From: Chloranthus sessilifolius
Lineage: Eukaryota > Streptophyta > Magnoliopsida > Chloranthales > Chloranthaceae
Direction: 5' to 3'
Length of the DNA: 64,000 nucleotides
Assembly (NCBI GenBank): GCA_021018995.1
Contig: CM037590.1
Location: forward strand, 64,451,597 to 64,515,596
The notes under the pieces: generated by a model
Databases searched by the model: none
What the model was told of the DNA's origin: nothing
Seen by the model: only the letters and a program-made list of their open reading frames with translations
Made by a program: the position numbers and the translations under genes
Part shown: piece after piece, positions 30,046 through 62,840 of the stretch
Layout of the letters: every line of letters starts with the position of its first letter
Position numbering within the stretch: position 1 is the first letter of the stretch

Positions 30046-30060
30046 CACCCCCAAACTTAA
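30046..30060 (-). other. Polypurine tract of the Athila-like element
   Basis: The minus strand reads TTAAGTTTGGGGGTG against the LTR start TGATCAGTCAC. Upstream GGGACTAGCAAAAC resembles the sequence before each concatemer LTR (GGACTAGCAAAGATTAGGTTTGGGG). Confidence 0.7.
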
Positions 30061-32331: not shown

Positions 32332-32336
32332 ACTAG
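32332..32336. repeat. Left target-site duplication (ACTAG)
   Basis: ACTAG lies immediately before the first LTR base (TGTTATTC at 32337) and is identical to 60133-60137 after the last LTR. Confidence 0.92.
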
Positions 32337-35231
32337 TGTTATTCTCTGAAAAATACTATTTTTCACCTTCTAACCTGACCTTTGATGGACCTTTGAGCCA
32401 GTTAATAATGATTTTTAAGCATGTTTTGTAGATAACAGGAAAATAATAGCTTAGTGCTGCAATCCATCATTTTAGTGCCAAGAGGAATAAATTTTGTGTC
32501 AAGCTGTAGAGCTGATAGAGTTACATGGAATGCACCATGGTGGATCATACCATGTGTGCCATTTACCATGGTTTGGATCCTTTGAAGTCCTGCCAAGCAG
32601 AGAGGAGTACTGCTACAGTGTATAAAATAGAGTGGCTGTGGAGGAAATTACAGCTGCACACAACATCTTGAGCAGTTTATATGTTCAACAGTGCAGCAGT
32701 TCAAGTGGCACACATACAGTTGCTGCTAAAACAACCTTGAAACGCATGTGCTGCTGCAATAGACATGTCAAAGAGCACTCAGAAAACCAGCATCTTCAAC
32801 AGCTAAAGAACATGACCTGCCAAGTTGCTGCTATACTAAAGCCAGCAACTGTTGTACATAACTCGAGCGGCTGCACTATGAAATTAAAAGTGAACTCGAG
32901 AAATTCATAACCTTGAAAATGAAGCACTTGAGCAAATGGATGAAGCTGTCTTGAAAGAAGTCGAGCAGTTCAGAAATTCACTTGAGTTGTGCAATGATGG
33001 AGAGTTGTAGCTGGTGCAACTCGAGCAGTTTATGGTCCACAGAATAAACCTCTCGAGCTGAATGTTGAAGGTCTGAAGTCACTCGAGCAGTTCTGAAGTG
33101 AACTTGGTCCTGAAATGTGTTGAAATTCAACTTGTCAAGTGGTAGTGCAACGCTGAAAGGAGCTAAAACTTAAAGCACTTGAGTGGTTTATGCTGGAATT
33201 GAACCCCACGAGAGGTTCAAGCTGCTGAAACTTAAAGCACTCAAGTAGTTCATGCTGAAAGCCAACTACACGAGCTGTTTATGCTGCTGTTTTTCAACCC
33301 CATGAGTGGTTAATGGCTGAAGAGTGATCCTCTCGAGAGGTTTAAATACTGCTGGAGCAACCACTCGAATGGTTTAAAATGAAGAAAAAAAGAATAGCAC
33401 GAGCTTAATGTATGCTAAAGCATTAATCTCACGAGTTGCAGTGCTGAAAATAAGCTTAAATCAACCTGTCGAGCAACCTGTCGAATGGTTCATAACCTGC
33501 TGAGCAACCTGTTGAGTAGTGAAAGAGGCTTAAAGCTTAACCTATCGAGTGGTTATTTGAACCTGTCGAGTTGTGCATTCTGAAGCCATTCAACCTGTTG
33601 AACATTTGCCTGAACCTCTAGAGATTTGAAATCTGAAGCTTTAACTGCACGAGGCACGGGTTCCAACCCTCTATTTCATACTTCAGAGATATTTTGGGGA
33701 TTCCACTGCTTCTAGGGCACGCATCCCAATGTCCTACACATCTCAAGGCATCCAATGGCTGAAAATAGGCCACGACACCAGCTCCGAATTCCTCAGTTCT
33801 GATTCGCTATTGCACACAACTGATTTATGGATTGTATAAATAGCATTTCTGGTGTCTTGTAAAATTATCCAGGATTAGCCTAAGATCACATTTAGGTTTT
33901 CTATTTTTAGATTAGGATTTTATTTTCTCCTTTCTTCTTCTTCCTTAGCTCAGCAATCATACTGAGTTAAATCTATGTAGCAGCTAGGTATAATCTAGAT
34001 CTGTAATCTAGTTTTGTGTGAACATTGTGAGCAGAGCTTTGGGATTTCTTACACAGACTGCTGTCTTGAGGGCAGATCATTGTAAGTCTTTGTTGAATGA
34101 AATGATATTTTTAAAGTTTATAAAATTTATATTTTCTTTGTATTTTTACATAGATTTGTATTGATTTGTATTTTTACAGAGGAGGGCAGATCATTGTGTT
34201 TGTGTGCTTATAGCCATACACACATGGTGGCAGCAGTGGGTTTATTGTTCTGATTTTGATCCCATAGTTGAACCACATCTCTGAGATGATCTGTGACCAT
34301 TCAAGTAGAGAGATCATAGCCTTAAGATGAGTTCAGATCACACAGGGCTGAGGCTAGATTCTTTTTCCCAGCCTTTGTGCTTGTAGCCAAAGGAGGGATA
34401 GCTGCAGATCTAACTCCTCCTCTGTTTTGAAAGACTATTTTCAGTGAATAGATATGAGATCTTGTAGAGATTGTAGACTTGAGAGTTTGATCATTGCAGG
34501 CCACTTTTTAGCAATGACCAACTAATTCTAAGCCCCAAACAATCTATGAGATCTAGCGGTTCTCACCAGATCTACATGGAATGTTTGATCCTATGGTTGC
34601 ATGTGCTTGTAGCCTTACAAGTATAGTATCTGTAATGATTTTTTTGTTTTGACTTTAGCATCTGTGATTGGATCACCTCCACAGGATAATCTGTGACCAT
34701 TTAAGTGGATAGATTATAGTCTTAAGAGCAGTTCAAATTACAGGGTTGAGTCAGATTCTTATACCTTACACTTGTGCTTGTAGCTAAGTGAAGGAATGCT
34801 ACAGATCTAGTTTTTGATCTGAGTTGCAGTGAAGATTATCCCACAGCTGCTTACTTCTCATCACTTTTTCTTTCTTTTATCACTTTATCATCGTCCTTCT
34901 TCATCCCTTTTTTTTAGCTGTAGTTTTATTCCTGTTTTTAGTTTAGTTTAGTTTAGTTTCGTGACACCTAAACACTCTCTCTTTACCTTGCTTTATAGTG
35001 TAGGCTTAGAGTGGCCAAATCTAGAGTTTACTATGCGCCTTTAGGTTTTTAGATCATCACTCTCCGTGGGACAAACTCTTACTTATCAAACCATGCTACA
35101 ACAGCCCTGGATCTTGTAGGGTGCCAATTTAGAATGTTGTTTTTATGCTGATTTCATCTATTTCACTTCCTTTTATTAATTGTTTTACAACACATTTCAA
35201 TAAAATGTTAGCATATCATTTTAACACAACA
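32337..35231 (+). repeat. Concatemer LTR1 (2895 bp)
   Basis: It starts TGTTATTCTC and ends AACACAACA, the only copy keeping the canonical CA end. Like LTR5 it has the 11-bp direct repeat GACCTTTGATGGACCTTTG (about 32380-32400). It carries a unique patch at 34178-34205. CTCGAG-type motifs are dense from about 32860 to 33640. Confidence 0.92.
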
Positions 35232-38115
35232 AGTTTTTGGCGCCGCTGTCAGAGAGTTTCGATCTAAGTATAGTAATCTGAGTTTAGTTTTTATTCTTTG
35301 TAATTGTAGTGTTTGATTAAATTACAGCTGTAATTTGTGTTTGATTTTTTTTTCACTTTTTATTATTATTTTGTGTTGTAAAATAAATAAAGCATAAAAA
35401 AAATTTAATGATACATCCGCAGATGAGGACCAGCAGTACCTCATATGCCATTTCCTCATACTTTTCAAGAGCATTCTCCTTTTTTCAAGGGGAAGGCTAG
35501 ATGGAGGAAATGAGAACTGTTTGACAGTTGCTGTCCTGATGAGATTGTGGAAGACACCTCCCCACACTGCTGGAATGGGCTGAGGTATGTGCTGAGATTG
35601 TTGAAGTAGGGATTGAGGAGAACCCCACTTATGTGCTGAAAATATTAATCATCTTGGGCTTCTCAGTAGGGCTAGTACAAACGTCCATTTGAACACCTTC
35701 CCTGCTGCCCCTCCCTCAGCCTTTTATTGACTATCCACCTAATGTGGAGCTGGAGCTGCTCCCTATATCTTTCAAGCAACTGAAATTTCTGAGCTAGAAG
35801 AACTAAGGTTTTAACTTCTGTAATTACAATTCTTTCCAGTTCAGCTGAGTTCCAGATGAGATGCATAATTTACTGTCTTTCATGAACCCCCATATAGAAT
35901 TGTTGAGATCATGGAACTTATTTTTGGGGAAGAATCATGAAGGTTAATGAGCAGAGGCTCATATTCTGTTTTGAAAATTTTTTGGAGCCTCTGAATTCAT
36001 TTACTTTTAAGACCTTCCACTGATATTTGATCTTAGTTGTATAACATATGTAATATAACTTTTCATGTTTTTTAATTGTGTAGATAGTATGCTTGTGGGA
36101 TATGATTTTTTATGAATCTTGCTTCGAAATGTGAACCATTAACAATGATGATCCTTGGCCATTCATGTAGATTCATCATCAGATCATGTTTAGAAAGCTG
36201 CAGTTAGGATTTTACCGTGTTAGGAGTTAGTTGTAACTACTGTTTTTTATAGTTTTCTGTTTTAGGAGTCTGTGCAGCTGTTGTGTCTTCTTAGTGTTAG
36301 TGTTTACATATTCTTTTTGTTCTCTTTCGTAGTCTAATTTTCTGCATCTTTTAGTTTGTTTTAACACATTTTTGACCAAAACAAACATGCAAGGACACAA
36401 TTTTCTCAGACCTGACAATTTTCTCTGTTGTCCTTTAGTTATTTTTCTTTTATTAAAACCTACTGCCTCTATACATGTATGATGAAATAGTGAGGACACT
36501 ATTTATCATAGGTTGGGGGAATGACAGGGTAGGCCAATAGAATAGTTAATTTTAGTGCAGAAATGTTAGTTGAATTGAGATAAATAAAGTAAATTCTTAC
36601 CTAACATGTTAGAATGAGGAAATTTAAAATTTTTTACAGACATTTAAAACTGAAAATCTTTGAACATTAGCACTACCATGAGGCTAACATCAAGAAAAGT
36701 TTTTCAATTAGTACTTAGTGAACAAGAGAGGAGAGAAAAAGGTGAACATTTACCTCATGGGTTAAATTGAAATGCCATACCCAGTGAGATTTTGGCCTAC
36801 CAATTTTCTTTTTAAGAGTGTTTGTGGTAATTTTTCTGCTCTATGGACTGATTAACTCAATATCTTTTCACTAGAAGTTAGGCACCTAGAATTGAAATTG
36901 ATGGACAACACTCATGACACTAAGGAGATGATTTAAGGCCTTCATTTGGACAGTTTGAGCTTAAGATTTTCTACCCAGTCAATTGCCCTTTGCATATACT
37001 CTTTGAGCCTTTAAAATCTCATTTTTCTTCAACAAACACTAGAATACTTGAACCTAAATCTTTTGATCGGATTTGGCCTTACCCTCATTCTGAGAATTTA
37101 GAAGGTGAAAGAAAAGAAGTGAAGATAGGTGAGTGGGTTCAACATTTGGTGAGAAGGAGAAGAAAAGAAAGAAAAAAAAATAGCAGTGTAGTAGTGGTAT
37201 ATGTGAGATTTTATTAAAAAAAAAAAAAAAAAAAAAGAAAGCAAGAGAAGTCACTTCATTTGAAAATTAATAAGAAGATAAGAAGCTGATCACTTCGGAT
37301 CTGAAAAATATTAAGGAGGATGAAGTTGTGCTGAAATGAAGAAGGTGAAGTCATGAATCACCTCTTTACCTTACTGATTTCTCAATTTTGATCCATTCTA
37401 CCCTTTATTCTTTATAAACCTCACCCATAAGCTACATTACAACCCATCAAAAAGGCCTTGTTGATCCAAAGTGAAATGAGCTGTCATGTGGAGATGAAGA
37501 GATGTCTAATCTATAGTGAAAGTACTTGACTATATCAAAATTTAGATGCAATGCCTATGCTCATGCTTGCTGGCCTATTTGAGGTCTGTGACTGATCTTG
37601 AGTTGATGAGAATGTGAACACCCTTGAATTTTCATTGTGAGAGATAGCCCTGGTGAGGATTGGGTTTGAAATTTAATTTCATTGGGATGGTATCTAAACC
37701 TGATTTTTGAATTTATAGTGAACTTAGTATTGATTTGTGTATAGTATTTTCCTGATGTGAACTGAATCGTGGTGATGTAACCACATGTTGATTTGTGTAC
37801 ATTATTTTCCTGATGTGAACTGAATCATGGTGATGCAACCACATGTTGATTTTAGTTTTAAATTGCTTGCATTACTGCTGTAATTTCCTCTGATTTTTAA
37901 AGAATAGGTGTGGACAGAAGTTTTATTCATTTAAATCTGTTTTGTCATTGACTGCACTCTACTTAACTGTTTTAATGGTGAAGTTTGTGGGTATCTTCAC
38001 CGTAAACCCTTAGGAGACTTCACTCCTCTCCTAGGGAAGTGGCATATACTGTTTTGAATAATTATTTTTAATTTTTTCTTTGTTCGAGGACTAGCAAAGA
38101 TTAGGTTTGGGGCTG
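35232..38115 (+). repeat. Concatemer internal domain 1 (non-coding)
   Basis: The PBS TGGCGCCGCTGTCAGAGA is at 35238-35255. No gag or pol. Two tandem copies of a roughly 58-bp unit lie at about 37735-37852. Relative to domains 2-4 it lacks about 60 bp near 38035 (the TATGGGTTTAAAAGGCTTGA segment). Polypurine tract just before 38116. Confidence 0.88.
35238..35255 (+). other. Primer binding site, tRNA-Asp type, of internal domain 1
   Basis: TGGCGCCGCTGTCAGAGA follows the LTR end by six bases. It matches the Athila/Tat tRNA-Asp-type site in its first eight bases (TGGCGCCG) and is partly degenerate after. The same site recurs at 40971 and 48566; at 54433 it reads TGGTGCCG. Confidence 0.8.
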
Positions 38116-40964
38116 TGTTATTCTATGAAAAATACCATTTTTCACCTTCTAACCTGACCTTTGAGCCAGTTAATAACAATTTTTAAGCGTGTTTTGTAGA
38201 TAGCAGGAAAATAATAGATTAGTGCTGCAATCCATCCTTTTAGTTCCAAGAAGAATAAATTTTGTGTCAAGTTGTAGAGCTGAAGGAGTTAAATGGAATG
38301 CACCATGGTGGATTATACCATGTGTGCCATTTAGCTTGGTTTGGATCCTTTGAAGTCCTGCCAAGCAGAGAGGAGTGCTGCTGCAGTGTACCAAATAGAG
38401 TAGCTATGGAGGAAATTACAGCTGCACGCAACATCTTGAACAATTTATATGTTCAACAGCGCAGTAGTTCAAGTGGCACACATACAGTTGTTGCTAAAAC
38501 AACCTCGAAAAACATGTGTTGCTGCAATAGACCTGTGAAAGAGCACTCAAAAAACCAGCATCTTCAATAGCTAGAGCACATGACCTGCCCAGCTACTGCT
38601 GTACTGAAGCCAACAACTGTTGTACATAACTTGAGCTATTGCAATATGAAGTTAAAAGTGAACTCGAGCAATTCATAACCTTGAAAATGAAGCACTCGAG
38701 CACATGGCTGAAGCTGTCTCGAAAGAAGTCGAGTAGTTCAGAAATTCACTCGAGTGGTGCAATGGAGAGTTATAGCTGGTGCAACTCGAGCAGTTTATGG
38801 TCCAAAGAATAAACCTCTAGAGCTGAATGTTGAAGGTCTGAAGCCACTTGAGCAGTTCTGAAGTGAACTTGGTGCTAAAATGTGTTGAAATTCAACTTGT
38901 CGAGTGGTAGTGCAGTGTTGCAAGGAATTAAAACTTAAAATACTCGATTGGTTTATGCTGGAATTGAACCCCACGAGAGGTTCTAGCTGCTGAAACTTAA
39001 AGCACTCAAGTAGTTCATGCTGAAAGCCAACTACACGAGTTGTTTAAGCTGCTATTTTTCAACCCCACAAGTGGTTAATAGCTGAAGAGTGATCCTCTCG
39101 GGTGGTTTAAATACTGCTGGAGTAACCACTCGAGTGGTTTAGAATGAAGAAAAAAAGAATCCCACGAGCTTAATGCATGCTGAAGCATTAATCTCATGAG
39201 TTGCAGTGCTGAAAATAAGCTTTAATCAACCTGTCGAGCAACCTGTCGAATGGTCCATAACCTGCTGAGCAACCTATTGAGTGTTGAAAGAGGCTTAAAG
39301 CTGAACCTGTTGAGTGGTTATTTGAACCTATCAAGCTGTGCCTTCTGAAGCCATTCAACCTGTCGAAAGGTTCATAACCTCTAGAAATCTGAAGCTCTAG
39401 CTGCACGAGGCATGAGTTCCAACCATCTATTTCATACTTCGGGGATATTTTGGGGATGCCACTGCTTCTTGGGCACGCATCCAAATGTCCTACACATCTC
39501 AGGGCATCTAATGGCTGAAAATAGGCCACGACACCAGCTCCGAATGCCTCAGTTCTGATTCGCTATTGCACACAACTGATTTATGGATTGTATAATTAGC
39601 ACTTCTGGTGTCTTGTAAAATTATCCAAGATTAGCCTAAGATCACATTTAGGTTTTCTATTTTTAGATTAGGGGTTTATTTTCCCCTTTCTTCTTCTTCC
39701 TTAGCTCAGCAATCATCCTGAGTTAAATCTATATAGCAACTAGGTATAATGTAGATCTGTAATCTAATTTTGTGGAGCATTGTGAGCAAAGCTTTGGGAC
39801 TTCTTACACAGACCGCTGTCTTGAGGGCAAATCATTGTAAGTCCTTGTTCAATGAAATGATATTTTTAAAGTTCATAAAATCTATATTTTCTCTGTATTT
39901 TTACATAGATTTGTATGGATTTGATGCTCCCGTGGGTGTATGTGCTTATAGTCATACACACATGGTGGTAGCAGTGGGTTTATCGTTCTGATTTTGATCC
40001 CGTGGTTGGACCCCATCTCTGAGATGATCTGTGACCATTCAAGTGGAGAGATCATAGCCTTAAGATGAGTTTAGATCATAGGGCTAAGGCTAGATTCTTT
40101 TTCCCGGCCTTTGTGCTTGTAGCCAAAGGAGGGATAGCTATAGATCTAACTCCTCTATTTTGAAAGACTATTTTCAGTGAATAGATATGAGATCTTGTAG
40201 AGATTGTAGACTTGAGAGTTTGATCATTGCAGGCCACTTTTTAGCAATGACCAACTAATTCTAAGCCCCAAACAATCTGTGAGATCTAGCGGTTCTCACC
40301 AGATCTACATGGAATGTTTGATCCTATGGTTGCATGTGCTTGTAGCCTTACAAGTATAGTATCTGCAATGATTTTTTTGTTTTGACTTTAGCATCTGCGA
40401 TTGGATCACCTCCATAGGATAATCTGTGACCATTTAAGTGGACAGATTATATCTTTAAGAGCAGACCAAATTACAGGGTTGAGTTGGATTCTTTTACTTT
40501 ACACTTGTGCTTGTAGCCAAGTGAAGGAATGCTACAGATCTAGTTTTTGATCTGAGTTGCAGTGAAGATTATCCCACAGGTGCTTACTTCTCATCATTTT
40601 TACTTTATTTTATCACCTTATCATCGTCTTTCTTCATCCCCTTTTTTTAGCTGTAGTTTTGTTCCTGTTTTTAGTTTAGTTTAGTTTAGTTTCGTGACAC
40701 CTAAACACCCTCTCTTTACCTTGCCTTATAGTGGGGGTTTAGAGTGACCAGATCTGGAGTTTACTATGCGCCTTTAGGTTTTTAGATCATCACTCTCCGT
40801 GGGACAAACTCTTAGTTATCAAAACTTGCTACAACAGCCGTGGATCTTGTAGGGTGCCAGTTTAGAATGTTGTTTTTATGCTGATTTCATCTATTTCCCT
40901 TCCTTTTTTTAATTATTTTACCACACATTTCAATAAAATGTTAGTATATCATTTTAACACAATA
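38116..40964 (+). repeat. Concatemer LTR2 (2849 bp)
   Basis: TGTTATTCTA to AACACAATA. It shares the inner-LTR state with LTR3 and LTR4: one copy of the GACCTTTGA repeat and GCAATGGAGAG in place of GCAATGATGGAGAG. It is near identical to LTR3 over long stretches (for example 38920-39180 against 44755-45015). Open frames of 74-111 codons inside are also found in degraded form in other copies and are not treated as genes. Confidence 0.92.
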
Positions 40965-43952
40965 AGTTTTTGGCGCCGCTGTCAGAGAGTTTTGATCTAA
41001 GTATAGTAATATGAGTTTAGTTTTTATTCTTTGTAATTATAGTGTTTGATTAAATTACAGCTGTAATTTGTGTTTGTTTTTTTTCACTTTTTTTTTTAAT
41101 TTTCTGTTTTAGATTTTTTGTATCTTTATAGTATTTGTTGAAATTACAGCTGTAAAATAAAATAAAAAATAAAAATTTTTTAATGATACATCCGCAGATG
41201 AGGACAAACAGTACCTCATATGCCATTTCCTCATACTTTTCAAGAGCATTCTCCTTTTTTCAAGGGGAAGGCTAGATGGAGGAAATGAGAACTATTTGAC
41301 AGTTGCTGTCCTGATGAGATTGTGGAAGACACCTCCCCACATTGCTGGAATGGGCTGAGGTATATGCTGAGATTGTTGAAGTAGGGATTGAGGAGGACCC
41401 CACTTATGTGCTGAAAATATTAATCATCTTGGGTTTCTCAGTAGGGCTAGTACAATAGTCCATTTGAACACCTACCTTGCTGCCCCTCCATCAGCCTGTT
41501 ATTGACTATCCACCTGATGCGGACCAGGAGCTGCTCCCTATATCTTTCAAGCAGCTAAAATTTCTGAGCTAGAAGAACTAAGGTTTGATGCCTATGCATC
41601 TGAAAAGGTATGGCTTTTTAACTTCTGCAATTACAGTTCTTTATAGTTTAGCTGACTTCTAGATGGGATGCATAATTTACTATCATTTGTGAATCTTCAT
41701 CTAGAATTATTGAGATCATGGAGCTCATTTTTTGGGAAGAATCATGAAGGTTAATGAGCAGAGGCTCATATTCTGTTTTGAAAATTTTTTGGAGCCTTTG
41801 AATTCATTCACTTTTAAGACCTTCCACTGATATTTGATCTTAGCTGTATAACATATGTAATATAACTTTTCATGTTTTTTAATTGTGTAGATAGTATGCT
41901 TGTGGGATCAGATTTTTTATGAATCTTGCTTCGAAATGTGTACCATTAACAATGATGATCCTTTGCCATTCATGTAGATTCATCATCAGATCATGTTTAG
42001 GAAGTTGCAGTTAGGATTTTATTGTTTTAGGAGTTAGTTGTAACTACTGTTTTATATAGTGTTAGTGTCTTCTTAGTGTTAGTGTTTACATATTCTTTTT
42101 GTTCTCTTTCGTAGTCTAAATTTCTGCATCTTTTAGTTTGTTTTAACACATTTTTTACCAAAACAAACATGCAAGGACACAATTTTCTCAAACCTGACAA
42201 TTTTCTCTGTTGTCCTTTAGTTATTTTTCCTTTATTAAAACCTACTGCCTCTATACATGTATGTTGAGACAGTGAGGACACTATTTATCTTATGTTTGGG
42301 GGTATGACAAGGTAGGCCAATAGAATAGTTAATTTTAGTGTAGAAATGTTAGTTGAATTGAGATAAATAAAGTAAATTCTTACCTAACTTGTGAGAATGA
42401 GGAAATTTAAAATTTTTTACAGACATTTAAAACTGAAAATCTTTGAACATTAGCACTACCATGAAGCTAACATCAAGAAAAGTTTTTCAATTAGTACTTA
42501 GTGAACTAGAGAGGAGAGAAAAAGGTGAACATTTACCTCATGGGTCAAATTGAAATGCCATACCCAGTGAGATTTGGGCCTACCAATTTTCTTTTTAAGA
42601 GTGTTTGTGGTAATTTTTCTGCTCTATGGACTGATTGACTCAATATCTTTTCACTAGAAGTTAGGCACCCAGAATTAAAACTGATGGACAACACTCATGA
42701 CACTAAGGAGATGATTTAAGGCCTTCATTTGGACAGTTTGAGCTTAAGATTTTCTACCCATTCAATTGCCTTTCGCATATACTCTTTGAGCCTTTAAAAT
42801 CCTATTTTTCTTCAACAAACACTAGAATACTTGAACCTAAATCTTTTGACCGGATTCAGCCTTACCCCATTCTGAGAATTCAGAAGGTGAAAGAAAAGAA
42901 GTGAAGATAGGTGAGTGGGTTCAACATTTGGTGAGAAGGAGAAGAAAAGAAAAAAAAAAATAGCAGTGTAGTAGTGGTATATGTGAGATTTTATTAAAAA
43001 AAAGAAAAAAAAAAGAAAGCAAGAGATGTCACTTCATTTGAAAATTAAAAAGAAGATAAGAAGCTGATCACTTCGGATCTGAAAAACATTAAGGAGGATG
43101 AAGTTGTGCTGAAATGAAGAAGGTGAAGTCATGAATCACCTCTTTACCTTACTGATTTCTCAATTTTGATCCATTCTACCCTTTAGTCTTTATAAACCGC
43201 ACCCATAAGCTACATTATAACCCATCAAAAAGACCTTGTTGATCCAAAGTAAAATGAGTTGTCATGTGGAGATGATGAGATGTCTAATCTATGGTGAAAG
43301 TACTTGACTATATCAAAACGTAGATGCAATGCCTATGCTCATGCTTGCTGGCCTATTTGAGGTCTGTGACTGATCTTGAGTTGATGAGAATGTGAACACC
43401 CTTGAATTTTCATTGCGAGAGATAGCCCTGGTGAGGATTGGGTTTGAAATTTAATTTCATTGGGATGGTATCTAAACCTGATTTTTGAATTTATAGTGAA
43501 CTTAGTGCTGATTTGTGTACAGTATTTTCCTGATGTGAACTGAATCATGGTGATGTAAGCACATGTTGATTTGTGTACATTATTTTTCTGATGTGAACTG
43601 AATCGTGGTGATGCAACCACATGCTGATTTTAGTACTAAATTGCTTGCATCACCGCTGGAATTTCTTCTGATTTTTAAAGAATAGGTGTGGACTGAAGTT
43701 TTATTTATTGAAATCTGTTTTGTTATTGACTGCACTCTACTTAACTGTTTTAATGGTGAAGTTTGTGGGTATCTTCACTGTAAACCCTTAGGAGACTTCA
43801 CTCCTCCCCTAGGGATCACATATGGGTTTAAAAGGCTTGATGCATATGCTAAATGCATCCGTGCTCTCTACGAAAGTAGCATTTACTGTTTTGAATAATT
43901 ATTTTTAATTTTTGCTTTGTTCGAGGACTAGCAAAGATTAGGTTTGGGGCTA
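40965..43952 (+). repeat. Concatemer internal domain 2 (non-coding)
   Basis: PBS at 40971. It has the same order of non-coding text as domain 1 plus the TATGGGTTTAAAAGGCTTGA segment near 43825. Two copies of the roughly 58-bp unit lie at about 43508-43628. No coding potential beyond short frames. Confidence 0.88.
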
Positions 43953-48559: not shown

Positions 48560-51500
48560 AGTTTTTGGCGCCGCTGTCAGAGAGTTTTGATCTAAGTATA
48601 GTAATCTAAGTTTAGTTTTTATTCTTTGTAATTATAGTGTTTGATTAAATTACAGCTGTAATTTGTGTTTATTTTTTTTTCACTTTTTTTTTAATTTTCT
48701 GTTTTAGATTTTTTGTATCTTTATAGTATTTGTTGAAATTACAGCTGTAAAATAAAATAAAAAATAAATTTTTTTTAATGATACATCCGTAGATGAGGAC
48801 CAGCAGTACCTCATATGCCATTTCCTCATACTTTTTAGGAGCATTCTCCTTATTTCAAGGGGAAGGCTAGATGGAGGAAATGAGAACTGTTTGACAGTTG
48901 CTGTCCTGATGAGATTGTGGAAGACACCTCCGCACATTGCTGGAATGGGCTGAGGTATGTGCTGAGATTGTTGAAGTAGGGATTGAGGAGGACCCCACTT
49001 GTGTGCTGAAAATATTAATCATCTTGGGTTTCTCAGTAGGGCTAGTACAACAGTCCATTTGAACACCTACCCTGTTGCCCCTCCCTTAGCCTGTTACTGA
49101 CTATCCACTTGATGCGGAACTGGAGCTGCTCCCTATATCTTTCAAGCAGCTAAAATTTTTGAGCTAGAAGAACTAAGGTTTGATGCCTATGCATCTGAAA
49201 AGGTATGGCTTTTTAACTTTTACAATTACAGTTCTTTCTAGTTCAGCTGAGTTCCAGATGGGATGCATAATTTACTGTCATTCGTGAATCTCCATCTAGA
49301 ATTATTGAGATCATGGAGCTCATTTTTTGGGAAGAATCATGAAGGTTAATAAGTAGAGGCTCATATTCTATTTTGAAATTTTTTTGGAGCCTTTGAATTC
49401 ATTCACTTTTAAGACCTTCCACTGATATTTGATCTTAGCTGTATAACATATGTAATATAACTTGTCATGTTTTTTAATTGTGTAGATAGTATGCTTGTGT
49501 GATCTGATTTTTTATGAATCTTGCTTTGAAATGTGTGCCATTAACAATGATGATCCTTTGCCATTCATGTAGATTCATCATCAGATCATGTTTAGGAAGT
49601 TGCAGTTAGGATTTTACTGTTTTAGGAGTTAGTTGTAACTACTGTTTTATGTAGTTTTCTGTTTTAGGAGTCTGTGTAGCTGTTGTGTCTTTTTAGTGTT
49701 AGTGTTTACATATTCTTTTTGTTCTCTTTCGTAGTCTAATTTTATGAATCTTTTAGTTTGTTTTACACATTTTTTACCAAAACAAACATGCAAGGACACA
49801 ATTTTCTCAGACCTGACAATTTTCTCTGTTGTCCTTTAGTTATTTTTCTTTTATTAAAACCTACTGCCTCTATACATGTATGTTGAAATAGTGAGGACAC
49901 TATTTATCATAGGTTTGGGGCTATGACAGGGTAGGCCAATAGAATAGTTAATTTTAGGGCAGAAATGTTAGTTGAATTGAGATAAATAAAGTAAATTCTT
50001 ACCTAACTTGTTAGAATGAGGAAATTTAAAATTTTTTACAGACATTTAAAATTGAAAATCTTTGAACATTAGCACTACCATGAAGCTAACATCAAGAAAA
50101 GTTTTTCAATTAGTACTTAGTGAACTAGAGAGGAGAGAAAAAGGTGAACATTTACCTCATGGGTTAAATTGAAATGCCATATCCAGTGAGATTTGGGCCT
50201 ACCAAATTTCTTTTTTAAGAGTGTTTGTGGTAATTTTTCTGCTCTATGGACTGATTGACTCAATATCTTTTCACTAGAAGTTAGGCACCCAGAATTGAAA
50301 CTGATGGACAACACTCATGACACTAAGGAGATGATTTAAGGCCTTCATTTGGGCAATTGGAGCCTAAGATTTTCTACCCATTCAATTGCCCTTTGCATAT
50401 ACTCTTTGAGTCTTTAAAATCCTAGTTTTGTTCAACAAACACTAGAATACTTGAACCTAAATATTTTGACCTGATTCAGCCTTACCCTCATTCTGAGAAT
50501 TCAGAAGGTGAAAGAAAAGAAGTGAAGATAGGTGAGTGGGTTCAACATTTGGTGAGAAGGAGAAGAAAAGAAAGAAAAAAAAATAGCAGTGTAGTAGTGG
50601 CATATGTGACATTTTATTAAAAAAAAGAAAAAAAAAAAAGAAAGCAAGAGAAGTCACTTCATTTGAAAATTAAAAAGAAGATAAGAAACTGATCACTTCG
50701 GATCTGAAAAACATTAAGGAGGATGAAGTTGTGCTGAAATGAAGAAGGTGAAGTCATGAATCACCTCTTTACCTTACTGATTTCTCAATTTTTATCCATT
50801 CTACCCTTTATTCTTTATAAACCTCACCTATAAGCTACATTACATCCCATCAAAAAGACCTTGTTGATCCAAAGTAAAATGAGCTGTCATGTGGAGATGA
50901 AGAGATGTCTAATCTATGGTGAACATACTTGACTATATCAAAACTTAGATGCAATGCCTATGCTCATGCTTGCAGGCCTATTTGAGGTCTGTGACTAATC
51001 TTGAGTTGATGAGAATGTGAACACCCTTTAATTTTTATTATGAGAGATAGCCCTGGTGAGGATTGGGTTTGAAATTTAATTTCGTTGGGAAGGTATCTAA
51101 ACCTGATTTTTGAATTTATAGTGAACGTAGTGCTGATTTGTGTACAGTATTTTCCTGATGTGAACTGAATCGTGGTGATGTAATCACATGTTGATTTGTG
51201 TACATTATTTCCTTGATGTGAACTAAATCTTGGTGATGCAATCACATGCTGATTTTAGTTTTAAATTGCTTGCATTACTGCTGTAATTTCCTCTGATTTT
51301 TAAAGAATAGGTGTGGACTGAAGTTTTATTTAATGAAATCTGTTTTGTCATTGACTGCACTCTACTTAACTGTTTTAATGGTGAAGTTTGTGGGTATCTT
51401 AACTGTAAACCCTTAGGAGACTTCACTCCTCCCCTAGGGATCACCTATGGGTTTAAAAGGCTTGATGCATATGCTAAATGCGTCCGTGCTCTCTACGAAA

Positions 51501-51577
51501 GTGGCATTTACTGTTTTAAATAATTATTTTTATTTTGTTCTTTGTTCGAGGACTAGTAAAGATTAGGTTTGGGGCCG
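48560..51577 (+). repeat. Concatemer internal domain 3 (non-coding)
   Basis: PBS at 48566. Two copies of the roughly 58-bp unit at about 51130-51250, and the TATGGGTTTAAAAGGCTTGA segment near 51447. No gag or pol. Confidence 0.88.
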
Positions 51578-54426
51578 TGTTATTCTCTGAAAAATATCAT
51601 TTTTCACCTTCTAACCTGACCTTTGAGCCAGTTAATAATAATTTTTAAGCGTGTTTTGTAGATAGCAGGAAAATAATAGATTAGTGCTGCAATCCATCCT
51701 TTAGTGCCAAGAAGAATAAATTTTGTGTCAAGCTGTAGAGCTGAAGGAGTTAAATGGAATGTACCATGGTGGATTACACCATGTGTGCCATTTAGCATGG
51801 TTTGGATCCTTTGAAGTCCTGCCAAGCAGAGAGGAGTGCTGCTGCAGTGTACCAAATAGAGTAGCTGTGGAGGAAATTACAGCGGCACGCAACATCTTGA
51901 ACAATTTATATGTTCAACAGTGCAGTAGTTCAAGTGGCACACATACAGTTGTTGCTAAAACAACCTTGAAACACATGTGTTGCTGCAATAGACCTGTGAA
52001 AGAGCACTCAGAAAACCAGCATCTTCAACAGCTAAAGCACATGACCTGCCCAGCTACTGTTGTACTGAAACCAGCAACTGCTGTACATAACTTGAGCTAT
52101 TGCAATATGAAGTTAAAAGTGAACTCGAGCAATTCATAACCTTGAAAATGAAGCACTCGAGCACATGGCTGAAGCTGTCTCGAAAGAAGTCGAGTCGTTT
52201 AGAAATTCACTCGAGTTGTGCAATAGAGAGTTATAGCTGGTGCAACTCAAGCTGTTTATGGTCCAAAGAATAAACCTCTTAAGCTGAATATTGAAGGTCT
52301 GAAGCCACTCGAGTAGTTCTGAAGTGAACTTGGTGCTAAAATGTGTTGAAATTCGACTTGTCGAGTGGTAGTGCAGTGCTGAAAGGAGCTGAAACTTAAA
52401 ATACTCGAGTGGTTTATGCTGGAATTGAACCCCATGAGAGGTTCTAGCTGCTGAAACTTAAAGCACTCAAGTAGTTCATGCCGAAAGCCAACTACACGAG
52501 TTGTTTAAGCTGCTGTTTTTCAACCCCCACGAGTGGTTAATAGCTGAAGAGTGATCCTCTCGAGTGGTTTAAATACTGCTGGAACAACCACTCGAGTGTT
52601 TTAGAATGAAGAAAAAAAGAATCCCACGAGCTTAATGCATGCTGAAGCATTAATCTCATGAATTGCAATGCTGAAAATAAGCTTCAATCAACCTATCGAG
52701 CAACCTGTCGAATGGTTCATAACCTGCTGAGCAACCTATTGAGTGCTGAAAGAGGCTTAAAGCTGAACCTGTTGAGTGGTTATTTGAACCTGTCAAGCTG
52801 TGCCTTCTGAAGCCATTCAACCTGTCGAATGGTTCATAACCTCTAGAAATCTGAAGCTCTAGCTGCACGAGGCACGAGCTCCAACCATCTATTTCGTACT
52901 TCGGGGATATTTTAGGGATTCCACTGCTTCTTGGGCACACATCCAAATGTCCTACACATCTCAAGGCATCTAATGGCTGAAAATAAGCCACGAAACCAGC
53001 TCCGAATGCCTCAGTTCTGATTCGCTATTGCACACAACTTATTTATGGATTGTATAATTAGCACTTCTGGTGTCTTGTCAAATTATCCAGGATTAGCCTA
53101 AGAACACATTTAGGTTTTCTATTTTTAGATTAGGGGTTTATTTTCCCCTTTCTTCTTCTTCCTTAGCTCAGCAATCATCCTGAGTTAAATCTATGTAGCA
53201 ACTAGGTATAATGTAGATCTGTAATCTAATTTTGTGGAGCATTGTGAGCAGAGCTTTGGGATTTCTAACACAGACCGCTGCCTTGAGGGCAAATCATTGT
53301 AAGTCCTTGTTCAATGAAATGATATTTTTAAAGTTCATGAAATCTGTATTTTCTCGGTATTTTTACATAGATTTGTATGGATTTAATGCTCCCGTGGGTG
53401 TATGTGCTTATAGTCATACACACATGGTGGTAGCAGTGGGTTTATTGTTCTGATTTTGATCCCGTGGTTGGACCCCATCTCTGAGATGATCTGTGACCAT
53501 TCAAGTGGAGAGATCATAGCCTTAAGATAAGTTCAGATTATAGGGCTGAGGCTAGATTCTTTTTCCCGGCCTTTGTGCTTGTAGCCAAAGGGGGGATAGC
53601 TACAGATCTAGCTCCTCTATTTTGAAAGACTATTTTCAGTGAATAAATCTGAGATCTAGTAGAGATTGTAGATATGAGAGTTTGATCATTACAGGCATCT
53701 TTGTAGCAATGACCAGTTGATTCTAAGCCCCAAACAATCTATGAGATCTAATGGTTCTCACCAGATCTACATGGAATGTTTGATGTTATGGTTGCATGTG
53801 CTTGTAGCCTTACTAGTATAGTATCTGCAATGAATTTTTTGTTTTGACTTTAGCTTCTGTGATTGGATCACCTCCATAGGATAATCTGTGACCATTTAAG
53901 TGGACAGATTATAGCCTTAAGAGCAGTCCAAATTATAAGGTTGAGTGGGATTCTTCTACTTTACACTTGTGCTTGTAGCCAAGTGAAGGAATGCTACAGA
54001 TCTAGCTTTTGATCTGAGTTGCAGTGAAGATTATCCCACAGGTGCTTACTTCTCATCATTTTTACTTTATTTTATCACTTTATCATCGTCTTTCTTCATC
54101 CCCTTTTTTTAGCTGTAGTTTTGTTCCTGTTTTTAGTTTAGTTTAGCTTAGTTTCGTGACACCTAAACACCCTCTCTTTACCTTGCTTTATAGTGTGGGT
54201 TTAGAGTGACTAGATCTGGAGTTTACTATGCGCCTTTAGGTTTTTAGATCATCACTCTCGGTGGGACAAACTCTTAGTAATCAAAACTTGCTACAACAGC
54301 CTTGGATCTTGTAGGGTGCCAGTTTAGATTGTTGTTTTTATGCTGATTTCATCTATTTCACTTCCTTTTTTTAATTGTTTTACCACACATTTCAATAAAA
54401 TGTTAGTATATCATTTTAACACAATA
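51578..54426 (+). repeat. Concatemer LTR4 (2849 bp)
   Basis: TGTTATTCTC to ACACAATA. It has the inner-LTR markers of LTR2 and LTR3 but more private substitutions, for example GAGTTGTGCAATAGAGAG near 52215. Confidence 0.92.
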
Positions 54427-57375
54427 AGTTTTTGGTGCCGCTGTCAAAGAGTTTTGATCTAAGTATAGTAATCTGAGTTTAGTTTTTATTCTTTGTAATT
54501 ATAGTGTTTGATTTAATTATAGCTGTAATTTGTGTTTATTTTTTTTTCACTTTTTTTTTTAATTTTCTGTTTTAGATTTTTTGTATCTTTATAGTATTTG
54601 TTGAAATTACTGCTATAAAATAAAAAAAAATAAAAATTTTTTTTAATGATACATCCGCAGATGAGGACCAGCAGTACCTCATATGGCATTTCCTCATACT
54701 TTTCATGAGCATTCTCCTTTTTTCAAGGGGAAGGGTAGATGGAGGAAATGAGAACTGTTTGACAGTTGCTGTCCTAATGAGATTGTGGAAGACACCTCCC
54801 CACATTGCTGGAATGGGCTGAGGTATGTGCTGAGATTGTTGAAGTAGGGATTGAGGAGGACTCCACTTATGTGCTGAAAATATTAATCATCTTGGGTTTC
54901 TCAGTAGGGCTAGTACAACAGTCCATTTGAACACCTACCCTGCTGCCCTCCCTCAGCCTGTTATTGACTATCCACCTGATGCGGACTCCCTATATCTTTA
55001 AAGCAGCTAAAATTTCTGAGCTAGAAGAACTAAGGTTTGATGCCTATGCGTCTGAAGAGGTATGGCCTTTTAACTTCTGCAATTACAGTTCTTTCTAGTT
55101 CAGCTGAGTTCCAGATGGGATGCATAATTTACTGTCATTCGTGAATCTCCATCTAGAATTATTGAGATCATGGAGCTCATTTGTTGGGAAGAATCATGAA
55201 GGTTAATGAGCAGAGGCTCATATTCTATTTTGAAAATTCTTTGGAGCCTTTGAATTCATTCACTTTTAAGACCTTCCACTGATATTTGATCTTAGCTGTA
55301 TAACATATGTAATATAACTTTTCATGTTTTTTAACTGTGTAAATAGTATGCTTGTGTGATCTGATTTTTTATGAATCTTGCTTCGAAATGTGTGCCATTA
55401 ACAATGGTGATCCTTTGCCATTCATGTAGATTCATCATCAGATCATGTTTAGAAAGTTGTAGTTAGGATTTTACTGTTTTAGGAGTTAGTTGTAACTGCT
55501 GTTTTATATAGTTTTCTGTTTTAGGAGTCTGTGTAGCTGTTGTTTCTTCTTAGTGTTAGTGTTTACATATTCTTTTTGTTCTCTTTCGTAGTCTAATTTT
55601 CTACATCTTTTAGTTTGTATTAACACATTTTTGACAGAAACAAACATGCAAGGACACAATTTTCTCAGACCTGACAATTTTCTCTGCTGTCCTTTAGTTA
55701 TTTTTCTTTTATTAAAAGCTGCTGCCTCTATACATGTATGTTGAAACAGTGAGGACACTATTTATCTTAGGTTTGGGGGTATGACAGGGTAGGCCAATAG
55801 AATAGTTAATTTTAGTGCATAAATGTTGATTGAATTGAGATAAATAAAGTCAATTCTCACCTTACTTGTTAGAATGATGAAATTTAAAACTTTTTACAGA
55901 CATTTAAAACTAAAAATCTTTGAACATTAGCACTACCATGAAGCTAACATCAAGAAAAGTTTTTCAATTAGTACTTAGTGAACTAGAGAGGAGAGAAAAA
56001 GGTGAACATTTACCTCATGGGTTAAATTGAAATTCCATGCCCAGTGAGATTAGGGCCTACCAATTTTCTTTTCAAGAGTGTTTGTGGCAATTTTTCTGCT
56101 CTATGGACTGATTGACTCAATATCTTTTCACTAGAAGTTAGGCACCCCGAATTCAAACTGATGAGCAGCACTCATGACACTAAGGAGATGATTTAAGGCC
56201 TTCATTTAGACAGTTTGAGCTTAAAATTTCCTACCCATTCAATTGCCCTTTGCATACACTCTTTGAGCCTTTAAAATCCTATTTTTCTTCAACAAATACT
56301 AGAATACTTGAACCTAAACCTTTTGACCTAATTCAGCCTTACCCTCATTCTGAGAATTCAGAAGGTGAAAGAAAAGAAGTGAAGATAGGTGAGTGGGTTC
56401 AACATTTGGTGAGAAGGAGAAGAAAAGAAAGAAAAAAAAATTACAGTGTAGTAGTGGTATATGTGACATGTTATTAAAAAAAAGAAAAAAAAATAGAAAG
56501 AAAGAGAAGTCACTTCATTTGAAAATTAAAAAGAAGAAAAGAAGCTGATCACTTCGGATCTGAAAAACATAAAGAAGGATGAAGTTGTGCTGAAATGAAG
56601 AAGGTGAGGTCATGAATCACCTCCTTACCTTACTGATTTCTCAATTTTGATCCATTCTACCGTTTATTCTTTATAAACCTCACCCATAAGCTATATTACA
56701 ATTCATCAAAAAGACCTTGTTGATCTAAAGTGAATTGAGCTGTGATGTGGAGATGAAGAGATGTCTAATCTATGGTGAAAGTACTTGACTATGTCAAAAC
56801 TTAGATGCAATGCCTATGCTCATACTTGCAGGCCTATTTGATGTCTGTGACTAATCTTGAGTTGATGAGAATGTGAACACCCTTGAATTTTCATTGTGAG
56901 AGATAGCCCTGGTGAGGATTGGGTCTGAAATTTAATTTCATTGGGATTATATCTAAACCTGATTTTTTAATTTATAGTGAACTTAGTGCTGATTTGTGCA
57001 CATTGTTTTCCTGATGTGAACTGAATGGTGGTGATGCAACCACATGCTAATTTTAGTTTTAAATTGCTTGCATTATTGCTGTAATTTCCTTTGATTTTTA
57101 AAGAATAGGTGTGGACTGAAGCTTTATTTATTGAAATCTGTTTTGTCATTGATTGCACTCTACTTAGCTGTTTTAATGGTGAAATTTGTGGGTATCTTCA
57201 CTGAAAACCCTTAGGAGACTTCACTCCTCCACTAGGGATCGCCTATGGGTTTAAAAGGCTTGATGCATATGCTAAATGCATCCGTGCTCCCTACGAAAGT
57301 GACATTTACTATTTTGAATAATTATTTTTAATTTTTGCTATGCTCGAGGAGTAGCAAAGATTAGGTTTGGGGCTG
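54427..57375 (+). repeat. Concatemer internal domain 4 (non-coding)
   Basis: The PBS is mutated to TGGTGCCG (54433). It has only one copy of the roughly 58-bp unit (about 56985-57050), whereas the other domains have two. No coding. Confidence 0.88.
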
Positions 57376-60132
57376 TGTTATTCTCTGAAAAATACCATTT
57401 TTCACCTTCTAACTTGACCTTTGATGGACCTTTGAGCCAATTAATAATGATTTTTAAGCGTGTTTTGTAGATAGCAGGAAAATAATAGCTTAGTGCTGCA
57501 ATCCATCCTTTTAGTGCCAAGAAGAATAAATTTTGTGTCAAGCTGTAGAGCTGATGGAGTTACATGGAATGCACCATGGTGGATTACACCATGTTTGCCA
57601 TTTAGCATGGTTTGGATCCTTTGAAGTCCTGCCAAGCAGAGAGGAGTGCTGCTGCAGTCTACCAAATAGAGTAGCTGTGGAAGAAATTACAGCTGCACAC
57701 AACATCTTGAGCAGTTTATATGTGCAACAGTGTAGCAGTTCAAGTGACACATATACAGTTGCTGCTAAAACAACCTTGAAACACATGTGCTGCTGCAATA
57801 GACCTGTGTAAGAGCACTCAGAAAACCAGCATCTTCAACAGCTAAAGCACATGACCTGCCAAGCTGCTGCTATACTGAAGCCAGCAACTGCTATACATAA
57901 CTCAAGCTGCTGCAATATGAAGTTAAAAGTGAACTCGAGCAGTTCATAACCTTGAAAATGAAGCACTCGAGCACATGGCTGAAGTTATCTTGAAAGAAGT
58001 CGAGCAATTCAGAAATTCACTCGAGTTGTGCAATGATGGAGAGTTGTAGCTGGTGCAACTCAAGCAGTTTATGGTCCAAAGAATAAACCTCTCGAGCTGA
58101 ATGTTGAAGGTCTAAAGTCACTTGAGCAGTTTTGAAGTGAACTTGGTGTTGAAATTTGTTGAAATTCAACTTGTCGAGTGGTAGTGCAATGCTGAAAGGA
58201 GCTAAAACTTAAAGCACTCATGTGGTTTATGCTGGAATTGAACCCCATGAGAGGTTCAAGCTGCTGAAACTTAAAGCACTCAAGTAGTTCATGTTGAAAG
58301 CCAACTACACGAGCTATTTATGCTGTAGTTTTTCAACCCCACGAGTGGTTAATGGCTGAAGAGTGACACTCTCGAGTGGTTTAAATACTACTGGAGCAAC
58401 CACTCGAGTGGTTTAGAATGAAGATCCCCCACGAGCTTAATGCATGGTGAAGCATTAATCTCTGAGTTGCAGTGCTGAAAATAAGCTTAAATCAACCTGT
58501 CTAGCAACCTGTCGAATGGTTCATAACCTGTTGAGTGCTGCAAGAGGCTTAAAGCTGAACCTATCGAGTGGTTATTTGAACCTGTCAGGCTGTGCCTTTT
58601 GAAGCCATTCAACCTGTCGTGCAGTTGCCTGAACCTCTAGAGATTTGAAATCTGAAATTCTAACTGCATGAGGCACGAGTTCCAACCATCTATTTCATAC
58701 TTCGATGATATTTTGGGGATTCCACTACTTCTAGGGCATGCATCCCAATGTCCCACACATCTCAAGGCATCCAATGGCTGAAAATAGGCCACGACACCAG
58801 CTTCGAATGCCTCAGTTCTGATTGGCTATTGCACACAACTGATTTATGGATTGTATAATTAGCACTTCTGTTGTCTTGTAAAATTATCCAGGATTAGCTT
58901 GAGATCATATTTACGTTTTCTATTTTTAGATTAGGGTTTTATTTTCCCCTTTCTTCTTCTTCCTTAGCTCAGCAATTATGCTGAGTTAAATCTATGCAGC
59001 AACTAGGTATAATGTAGATATGTAATCTGGTTTTGTGTGAGCATTGTGAGCAAAGCTTTGGGATTTCTTACACAGACTATTGCCTTGATGGCAGATCATT
59101 GTAAGTCCTTGTTCAATGAAATGCTATTTTTAAAGTTGATTAAATCTATATTTTCCCTGTATTTTTATATAGATCTGTATAGATTTGATGCTCCCATGGG
59201 TGTATCTGCTTGTAGCCATACACACATGGTGGAAGTAGTGGGTTTATTGTTCTGGTTTTGATCTCGTGGTTGGACCACATCTCTGGGATGATTTGTGACC
59301 ATTCAAGTAGATAGATCATAGCCTTAGGATGAGTCCAGATTACAGGGCCATGGCTAGATTTTTTTTCCAGCCTTTGTGCTTGTAGCCATAGGAGGGATAG
59401 CTGCAGATCCAACTCCTCTATTTTGCAAGACCATTTTCAGTGAATAGTAGTTCTCACCAGATCTACATGGAATGTTTGATCCTATGGTTGCATGTACTTG
59501 TAGCCTTGCAAGTATAGTGTCTGCAATGCTTTTCCTGTTCTAAGTTTAGCATCTGTGATTGAAGCACCTCCCTTGGATAATTTGTGACCATTTAAGTGGA
59601 CAAATTATAACATTAAGAGCAATCAAAATCACAGGGTTGAATCGGATTCTTTTACCTTACACTTGTGCTTGTAGCCAAGTGAAGGAATGATGCAGATCTA
59701 GTTCTTGATCTGAGTTATAGTGAAGATTATCCCACAACTGCCTCCTCATCATTTTTACTTTATTTTACCACTTTATCATCATCCTTCTTCATCCCCTTTC
59801 TTTAGCTGTTGTTTTATTTCAGTTTTTAGTTTAGTTTAGTTTTGTTTTGTGACACCTAAACACCCTCTCTTTACCTTGCTTTCTAGTGTAGGTTTAGAGT
59901 TGTCAAATCCGTAGCTAGATCTGGAGTTTACTATATGCCTTTACGTTTTTAGATCATCACTCTCCGTGGGATAAACTCTTACTTATCGAAACTTGCTACA
60001 ACAGCCTTGGATCTTGTAGGCTGTCAGTTTAGAATGTTATTTTTATGCTAATTTCATCTATTTCACTTCCTTTCTTTTAATTATTTTACCACATATTTTT
60101 ATAAAATATTAGCACAATATTTTAACACAATA
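57376..60132 (+). repeat. Concatemer LTR5 (2757 bp)
   Basis: TGTTATTCTC to ACACAATA, followed by ACTAG. It shares the outer-LTR markers of LTR1 (11-bp direct repeat near 57420, GCAATGATGGAGAG near 58030). A deletion of roughly 110 bp near 59440 explains its shorter length. Confidence 0.92.
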
Positions 60133-60137
60133 ACTAG
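60133..60137. repeat. Right target-site duplication (ACTAG)
   Basis: Identical to 32332-32336. Together they show that the whole five-LTR structure occupies a single integration site. Confidence 0.92.
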
Positions 60138-60921: not shown

Positions 60922-61502
60922 TCAGTAATATTTTGGATCTTTCAGTGTCAGTGCGATCACCGTCCCATTTTCTTCTAACGATATCATCAGGCTAAGTCTC
61001 TGTCCATTAACCTTAAAAGTACGATTGTCCTTGCGATCTCTGATAGAGACAACCCTGTGAGGGAATATTTCTATAACTGTGTAGGGACCATCCCAACGAC
61101 TTCGTAATTTTTTTGGGAATAACTTTAACCTTGAATTATACAGCCAAACTTGTTGACCAGGCTTAAAACTCTTTCTCAGAATATGTTTATCATAGAAGGC
61201 TTTGGTTTTGGCTTTATAGATTCGAACATTTTGATATGCATCGTTTTGAATTTCCTCGAGCTCATTGAGTTCGAGTTTCCTCTGCTCTCCTAATGCGGTT
61301 ATTTCAAAATTGAGTGCTTTAATAGACCAAAGGGCTCTATGTTCTAATTCCACAGGAAGGTGACAAGCTTTACCATCCATCAGGCGGAAAGGTGACATTC
61401 CAATGGGGGTCTTATAAGCCATTCTGTATGCCCACAGAGCATCATTTAATCTTATGGACTAGTCTTTTCTATCAAGGCGAACAATCATTTCTAATATTTT
61501 CT
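60922..61502 (-). pseudogene. Athila-like integrase C-terminal part
   Basis: On the minus strand the frame runs from about 61545 through the integrase core end ([12 protein letters not shown]), a TAG at 61459-61461 and a clean 166-codon stretch to 60922. [34 protein letters not shown] and [20 protein letters not shown] are the Athila-clade integrase C-terminus with its GPY/F-like region. The TAG probably replaces a Trp. No chromodomain follows, in contrast to the element at 1-11425. Confidence 0.85.
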
Positions 61503-62765: not shown

Positions 62766-62840
62766 GTGGCACAGAGGTCTTGAGATCTTTGAAAAATCTT
62801 TAATAAAACGGTGATAGAAACGACATGGCTAAGTTCAAAT

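Follow-up and report, generated by a model that had tools for sequence, protein, structure and literature searches.

How does a long terminal repeat (LTR) retrotransposon come to occupy a single site as a series of joined units? The question is raised by a 64,000-nucleotide stretch of the Chloranthus sessilifolius genome (contig CM037590.1 of assembly GCA_021018995.1; hereafter the window), in which self-comparison and motif search revealed five LTRs and four internal domains at 32337–60132, all on the forward strand, alternating and with an LTR at either end. Whether such tandem LTR elements form by insertion of several units at once or by later recombination is left undecided in a 2025 survey (PMC11899658). 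The present array is old enough for exchange steps to have left marks, and its history is probably that of one non-autonomous Ty3-type insertion from which unequal exchange at the same site produced four units.

The array is enclosed by a perfect target-site duplication, ACTAG, at 32332–32336 and 60133–60137. Between these copies lie LTR 1 (32337–35231, 2895 bp, TG...CACAACA), internal domain 1 (I1; 35232–38115, 2884 bp), LTR 2 (38116–40964, 2849 bp), I2 (40965–43952, 2988 bp), LTR 3 (43953–48559, 4607 bp), I3 (48560–51577, 3018 bp), LTR 4 (51578–54426, 2849 bp), I4 (54427–57375, 2949 bp) and LTR 5 (57376–60132, 2757 bp, with a private 105-column deletion in its 3′ part). All four internal domains start with AGTTTTTGG(C/T)GCCGCTGTC and extend from a primer-binding site (PBS), which we take to match plant tRNA-Asp, to a polypurine tract (PPT) such as GGTTTGGGGCTG. 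Each inner LTR is preceded by this PPT and followed by the PBS AGTTTTTGGCGCCGCTGTC, or by near forms of either, and none of the five LTRs, all of which were checked, has matching 5-bp words on its two sides. Depending on the stretch, units are ~86–98% identical with many indels, so chance is not an issue for the reality of the array. A sequence-only reading of the window had proposed five LTRs and four internal domains, a single perfect outer duplication, and LTRs that directly abut PBS and internal domains with no inner duplications; all of this was borne out, with exact coordinates.

Judged by sequence, the array sits in an older, related Ty3-type element of opposite orientation, presumably Athila-like, in which the domains recognized by Pfam are RNase H and integrase alone. 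These domains lie on the reverse strand at 61503–62828 within 60922–63209, together with a weak integrase C-terminal match below the Pfam cut-off (60922–61458) and an open frame with no Pfam match (62841–63209). The 3′ remainder of this host element as far as its PPT, delimited by eye and by continuity of the flanks with paralogous copies, apparently covers 30046–32331 on the same strand, and its 3′ LTR appears to start at ~30045 and run left; no end of the host was found to the right of the array inside the window. The 3′ end of the array element resembles the PPT region of the host, with I2–I4 76–80% identical over ~195 bp and I1 matching in two shorter stretches (60 bp, 80%; 84 bp, 70%).

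The joined flanks of the array were compared to 11 of 39 listed outside matches to the host (L030–L040), which are paralogues in the same genome and not alleles of the site. In ten of the 11, the alignment runs through the junction, although in L034 it has a gap there. Exactly one ACTAG occupies the empty site in five (L030, L032, L033, L036 and L037), the others having near or missing forms. Together with the outer duplication, these empty paralogous sites support entry of the array sequence by a single insertion.

A second line of evidence comes from the LTRs themselves. Using the first 1001 bp of LTR 1 as query, the five array LTRs match at 90–100% over nearly the whole length, while the best outside copies (40 of 3939 candidates scored) reach 74–84% over approximately the first 250–440 bp. 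For an 800-bp LTR core (32740–33540), full-length matches occur only in the five array LTRs, at 90–91% to LTR 1, among the 40 scored of 165 genome candidates, a scope that applies to all statements on this core; the sixth match spans 119 bp, and matches outside the array reach ~200 bp at most. This restriction of the core points to a common origin of the five LTRs within the locus, and with the empty host copies it upholds the single integration site asserted by the sequence-only reading. No further array of this core subfamily was found among those 40 candidates. Trees of five regions were rooted with outgroups chosen by hand from 23 loci (L006–L028) wherever a match spanned the region (13, 15, 6, 5 and 5 rows); a further set of site counts used 13, 6 and 4 outgroup rows. 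The outgroup listing holds only >150-bp matches of four of nine query pieces, and some sets omit near-duplicate or overlapping loci (L011, L026, L027) as well as certain other loci. Against these outgroups, the internal domains form a single clade, with bootstrap 100 in both main parts.

The growth of the array can be read from the internal domains. If an unequal exchange took place inside an internal domain, the resulting middle domain should derive from the last unit to the left of the breakpoint and from the first unit to the right of it. This directional pattern is observed in I2 and I3. Differences confined to I1 and to I4 number 42 versus 17 in the left part and 28 versus 72 in the right part (p = 0.0002, the lowest value attainable with 5000 permutations). 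The change-point falls at alignment columns 1090–1187 when columns within 5 of a gap are excluded and at columns 1062–1082 with no filter or a stricter one (p again 0.0002), and its direction is constant under the three gap filters. The change-points for I2 versus I3, I1 versus I2 and I3 versus I4, three of five comparisons made, were not significant (p = 0.10–0.79).

Polarization by outgroups, for sites at which at least three outgroups had a letter with 70% agreement and after dropping array gap columns, gave the same picture. In the 5′ part, 12 derived states are common to I2, I3 and I4 and three to I1, I2 and I3; in the two 3′ parts together, the counts are one and 20 (Fisher test for the 5′/3′ contrast, 4e-6). 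The conflicting 5′ and 3′ groupings each have a bootstrap value of 99, and approximately unbiased (AU) tests reject the opposite rooting in the 5′ part (p = 0.006) and in the two 3′ parts (p = 0.0008 and 0.019). Within I2, the last site grouping the inner with the last domain is at domain position 834 and the next one grouping inner with first at 1280, placing the switch of affinity, the putative crossover zone, at 41799–42244. A run of 19 polymorphic sites shared by I3 and I4 (columns 664–762, p = 0.0005) agrees with the left-part affinity. A star tree of the internal domains, our first reading based on unrooted splits, was replaced after this positional analysis. This directional mosaic and the nested divergences favor stepwise unequal exchange in place, with the middle domains as the kind of hybrid that an unequal crossover inside an internal domain should generate.

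Divergences within the array are nested, with Kimura two-parameter (K2P) distances of ~0.13, 0.07–0.09 and 0.04–0.05. The deepest tier separates LTR 5 from LTRs 1–4 in the 3′ part (0.133; 0.112–0.153); the middle one comprises LTR 1 versus the inner LTRs (0.083–0.088) and I1 versus I4 (0.0715); and the shallowest comprises LTR 4 versus LTRs 2 and 3 (0.041–0.049) and I2 versus I3 (0.046). For the middle exchange, three estimates are concordant: I4 versus I2 and I3 on the left (0.047), I1 versus I2 and I3 on the right (0.043), and the distance of LTR 4 from LTRs 2 and 3. At a substitution rate of 1.3e-8 per site and year, a value uncertain for this plant, the tiers correspond roughly to 5, 3 and 1.7 million years.

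The LTRs record a related history. A split between LTRs 2–4 on one side and LTRs 1 and 5 on the other is marked in the 5′ part by 40 sites, in the 3′ part by 14, and by an 11-bp deletion, which is derived because LTRs 1 and 5 and 13 of 13 outgroup rows keep these bases. In the 3′ part, 19 derived sites are common to LTRs 1–4 and none to LTRs 2–5, and LTR 5 is basal (AU p ~2e-6 and 3e-6 for the alternatives), as expected if the right part of the inner LTR came from LTR 1. A 12-bp deletion common to LTRs 1–4 agrees with this position, though three of 15 outgroups also lack such bases. The change-point for LTR 1 versus LTR 5 has the same direction as that of the internal domains (p = 0.004–0.022). 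LTRs 2 and 3 are identical over columns 517–1135 of the 5′ part, a tract of 619 columns with 91 consecutive polymorphic sites (p = 0.0005, the minimum for 2000 permutations), at flanking K2P distances of 0.037 and 0.042. A candidate conversion between LTRs 1 and 2 at columns 311–509 of the 3′ part (p = 0.06) is not claimed, and shared runs in the 3′ part between LTRs 3 and 5 (p = 0.016) and LTRs 3 and 4 (p = 0.045) are weak given 26 pairs tested.

Under the model of growth in place, a single copy with the private LTR core would have inserted once, producing the ACTAG duplication, into the 3′ region of the older, oppositely oriented element and then expanded when sister or homologous chromosomes underwent unequal exchange. 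A first, LTR-by-LTR exchange would have generated two units, after which the new inner LTR lineage would have gathered its own changes, including the 11-bp deletion. Next, unequal exchange of one internal domain with the other (~columns 1062–1187) may have duplicated the inner LTR and created the hybrid middle domain, and a further one-unit exchange of similar age would have brought the array to four units. Later, the 619-column tract may have been copied between LTRs 2 and 3, and an element of another family would have inserted into LTR 3 and been reduced to a solo LTR. The data themselves show the single site, the private core (among the candidates scored), the directional mosaic, the nested divergences and the identical tract; we infer the exact order of these steps, as well as that each was a crossover rather than a conversion. 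The first step, from one unit to two, is likewise inferred and uncertain, since the grouping predicted for the 5′ part of the LTR is not seen.

This and several other observations weigh against the model. A simple version of it would group LTR 5 with the inner LTRs and leave LTR 1 basal in the 5′ 60% of the LTR. Instead, this region has a three-way split, with distances of 0.080 between LTRs 1 and 5, 0.088 between LTR 1 and the inner LTRs and 0.087 between LTR 5 and the inner LTRs. Polarized sites common to LTRs 2–5 versus LTRs 1–4 number one versus zero in the first 268 bp, two versus three in the first 402 bp and four versus three at 1256–1782. By AU test, the first 268 bp are compatible with all three rootings, and 1256–1782 accepts either LTR 5 or LTR 1 as basal and rejects basal inner LTRs (p = 0.022). 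The LTR change-point is a gradient of unstable position (columns 1866, 1349 and 603). For the mosaic, conversion tracts instead of crossovers could yield parts of it. The outgroups are mostly 70–88% identical, and the LTR core lies outside their coverage. Moreover, the 3′ part of LTR 5 is 86–87% identical to its siblings (over 313–995) and 82–87% to outside copies, and its exclusion from an outside clade has 72% support only; import of this part from another copy is possible on the basis of these similarities.

The pattern in the 5′ part of the LTR requires either an additional conversion or the insertion of two units with a later change in the 3′ part of LTR 5. In the second case, a three-LTR element, produced when reverse transcription switched templates or read through, would have integrated and then grown to four units in place. 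The near equidistance of LTR 1, LTR 5 and the inner LTRs in the 5′ 60% resembles the outcome for three LTRs identical at integration, and the main opposing evidence, the 3′ part of LTR 5, could be an import. Template-switch insertions with 5-bp duplications and similar outer LTRs have been described in grasses (PMC1950507), and the array shares with such complexes the flanking duplication and the outer LTR states set against inner ones. It differs in that the inner-LTR states are here mostly derived (inner-only versus outer-only, 22 versus one in three regions and six versus three in the first 402 bp), and the 3′ part of its LTRs contradicts identical outer LTRs at integration. The basal position of LTR 5 in that part (AU p <1e-5) would need a later change in LTR 5 alone, for which the 40 scored of 9966 candidates include no recent donor (best outside copy 87%). 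The 40 candidates scored for the private core also showed no second lineage carrying it, leaving a heterodimer with no known second parent. Together, these data render a two-unit insertion unlikely, albeit deserving of serious consideration.

Integration of the entire five-LTR array in one step as a concatemer, one of two mechanisms offered by the sequence-only reading, fits the single outer duplication and the lack of inner ones. Such an event predicts a single age and no positional mosaic, while the observed divergences differ approximately threefold and the mosaic is directional, making a one-step origin very improbable. The other mechanism offered there, recombination after one insertion, gains from these same two features. 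Recombination among separate family insertions lying close together, or the import of units from ectopic sites, was invoked by Devos et al. for multi-LTR elements of Arabidopsis (as reported in PMC1950507), and the approximately equal closeness of the LTR 5 3′ part to outside copies and siblings would suit it. The flanking duplication matched by empty paralogous sites, the core shared by all five LTRs with no full-length match elsewhere among the candidates scored, and the monophyly of the internal domains all speak against it, and we give it hardly any credence. An assembly artefact is the least credible origin: although the array is known from the assembly alone, artefacts would duplicate near-identical sequence, whereas K2P distances of 0.026–0.14, private indels, a nested solo LTR present in one unit alone and a rooted history that is coherent agree with the earlier view of indel-diverged units with no obvious assembly duplication.

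Growth in place by unequal exchange suggests a broader reading, which we regard as reasonably plausible: old LTR arrays may keep a directional mosaic by which their exchanges can be dated and ordered. LTR-by-LTR pairing is the route usually proposed for array growth; in the present array, one or both of the later steps would have occurred inside the internal domain, and pairing between LTRs would be needed for the first step only. The underlying test, asking with outgroup rooting whether the affinity of inner units depends on position, is applicable to any array of at least three units, and its genome-wide use would settle how tandem LTR elements form. In a limited search, which is not proof of absence, we did not find this test named in the literature.

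Tandem LTR elements as such are well documented. The sequence-only reading had called arrays of this order uncommon, contrary to published surveys reporting them as common in plants, some longer than the present one (PMC11899658, PMC4528315, PMC7215508). Athila is over-represented among the tandems of A. thaliana, almond and cotton (PMC11899658); A. thaliana has four elements with more than three LTRs (among PMC11899658, PMC4528315, PMC5379124 and PMC7215508); two maize Wukong elements have six and seven LTRs (PMC4528315); and Cassandra forms ~12 repeats with units described as nearly identical (PMC7215508). The array resembles the tandem LTR-retrotransposon insertions (TLIs) of the IDENTAM survey (PMC11899658) in its alternation of LTRs and internal domains, LTR ends, one flanking duplication with none inside and Ty3/gypsy affiliation. 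It differs from the two TLIs detailed in that source, which have two units each, by having four more diverged units without intact coding and a readable growth history, and from the selected rice tandems, 80% of which have LTRs >95% identical (PMC11899658). The array is thus a further case of known tandem LTR elements, to which its readable growth history is what is added.

Among non-autonomous elements, TRIMs have units much smaller than 5.8 kb, and LARDs, for example Sukkula, are large LTR elements. Sukkula is named in PMC7215508. Like the multi-LTR TRIMs Wukong (PMC4528315) and Cassandra (PMC7215508), the array element is non-autonomous and forms an array with shared LTRs, but its unit measures 5.8 kb with LTRs of 2.8–2.9 kb, and its units are diverged, unlike the near-identical ones of Cassandra (PMC7215508). 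With long LTRs, an internal domain of ~3 kb without intact frames and a retained PBS and PPT, it can be likened to LARDs, by description and not by sequence; its own sequence shows similarity to the adjoining, presumably Athila-like host. No function was seen for the array, which we take to be a recombination by-product. It presents an LTR element in a course of repeated exchange and local homogenization that could lead toward satellite-like arrays, from which it is still far: a satellite is a long, homogenized array of many units, and here there are four diverged ones. Because of this, and as no further such array was found among the core candidates scored, satellite seeding by the array is to be considered a possibility only.

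We also assessed the coding content of the element, which the sequence-only reading had described as non-coding. None of the four internal domains contains a stop-to-stop frame of at least 120 codons, and their longest stop-free stretches (96–108 codons) are inside the range of shuffled sequences (100 per domain). LTRs 2 and 4 contain three frames of 122–139 codons, of which the one tested, 39194–39562, had no Pfam match. A relaxed translated comparison to the host frame detected a weak and decayed integrase C-terminal trace, in the form of two collinear short matches in I2–I4 and one in I1 (best E 9e-5 versus 0.06 for reversed controls); nothing clear emerged in this search as a further coding remnant. 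The trace is a weak sign that the internal domain may be a decayed derivative of a host-like element.

Does the genome contain other arrays? A pattern for the LTR–PBS junction (up to three mismatches) matched the genome at 317 places, whereas its reversed control had no match. Within the 100 matches that were listed, same-strand series at unit spacing comprised the four junctions of the present array and one on C1 (88939242, 88945528 and 88951792; spacing 6.26–6.29 kb), with two of its junctions inside L042 (G000:C1:88936500–88946499). In the 10 kb read there, 1.6 kb comparable between two units are 99.1–99.6% identical, and one unit has ~2 kb extra. By these features, the C1 locus seems to be another tandem LTR array, young and belonging to a related family. 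Elements with this PBS would then have formed tandems at least twice in the genome, once recently. Within the listed matches, the proposed search for loci with three or more LTRs yielded this one further junction series. A same-strand LTR pair 17.8 kb apart on C3 was rejected as another array, with no further family unit in two stretches covering most of the interval.

Some further repeats deserve mention. Three equal-scoring partial matches to the LTR core on C5 (57793010, 57821616 and 57850292) are spaced by ~28.6 kb, suggesting a large tandem repeat. Two near-identical family copies on C2 (L010 and L011), ~153 kb apart and with the same match pattern, suggest a segmental duplication. Within the 3′ part of LTR 1, a direct duplication of ~210 bp (34203–34412 and 34602–34809, ~70% identical) gives cross-matches of a kind also seen in several outside copies.

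The length of LTR 3, 4.6 kb, is explained by a 1753-bp solo LTR of another family (45717–47469, forward strand, TG...CA), flanked by an ATAAA duplication. In self-comparison, this solo LTR is 85% identical to 9793–11425 and 78% to 3–812, both reversed. It contains many copies of a ATTAATCGA-type motif, and repetitive stretches similar to its motif region occur at 2900–3650, 10359–10770 and 11750–12143. The left part of the window also contains, at 8876–13619, two copies of one LTR with adjoining sequence arranged head to head, which form a 2.2-kb inverted repeat (8876–11097 and 11426–13619, 88% identical). Further right, at 14553–18010, are open frames for a tnp2-type (CACTA-like) transposase with DUF4218 and DUF4216 neighbors.

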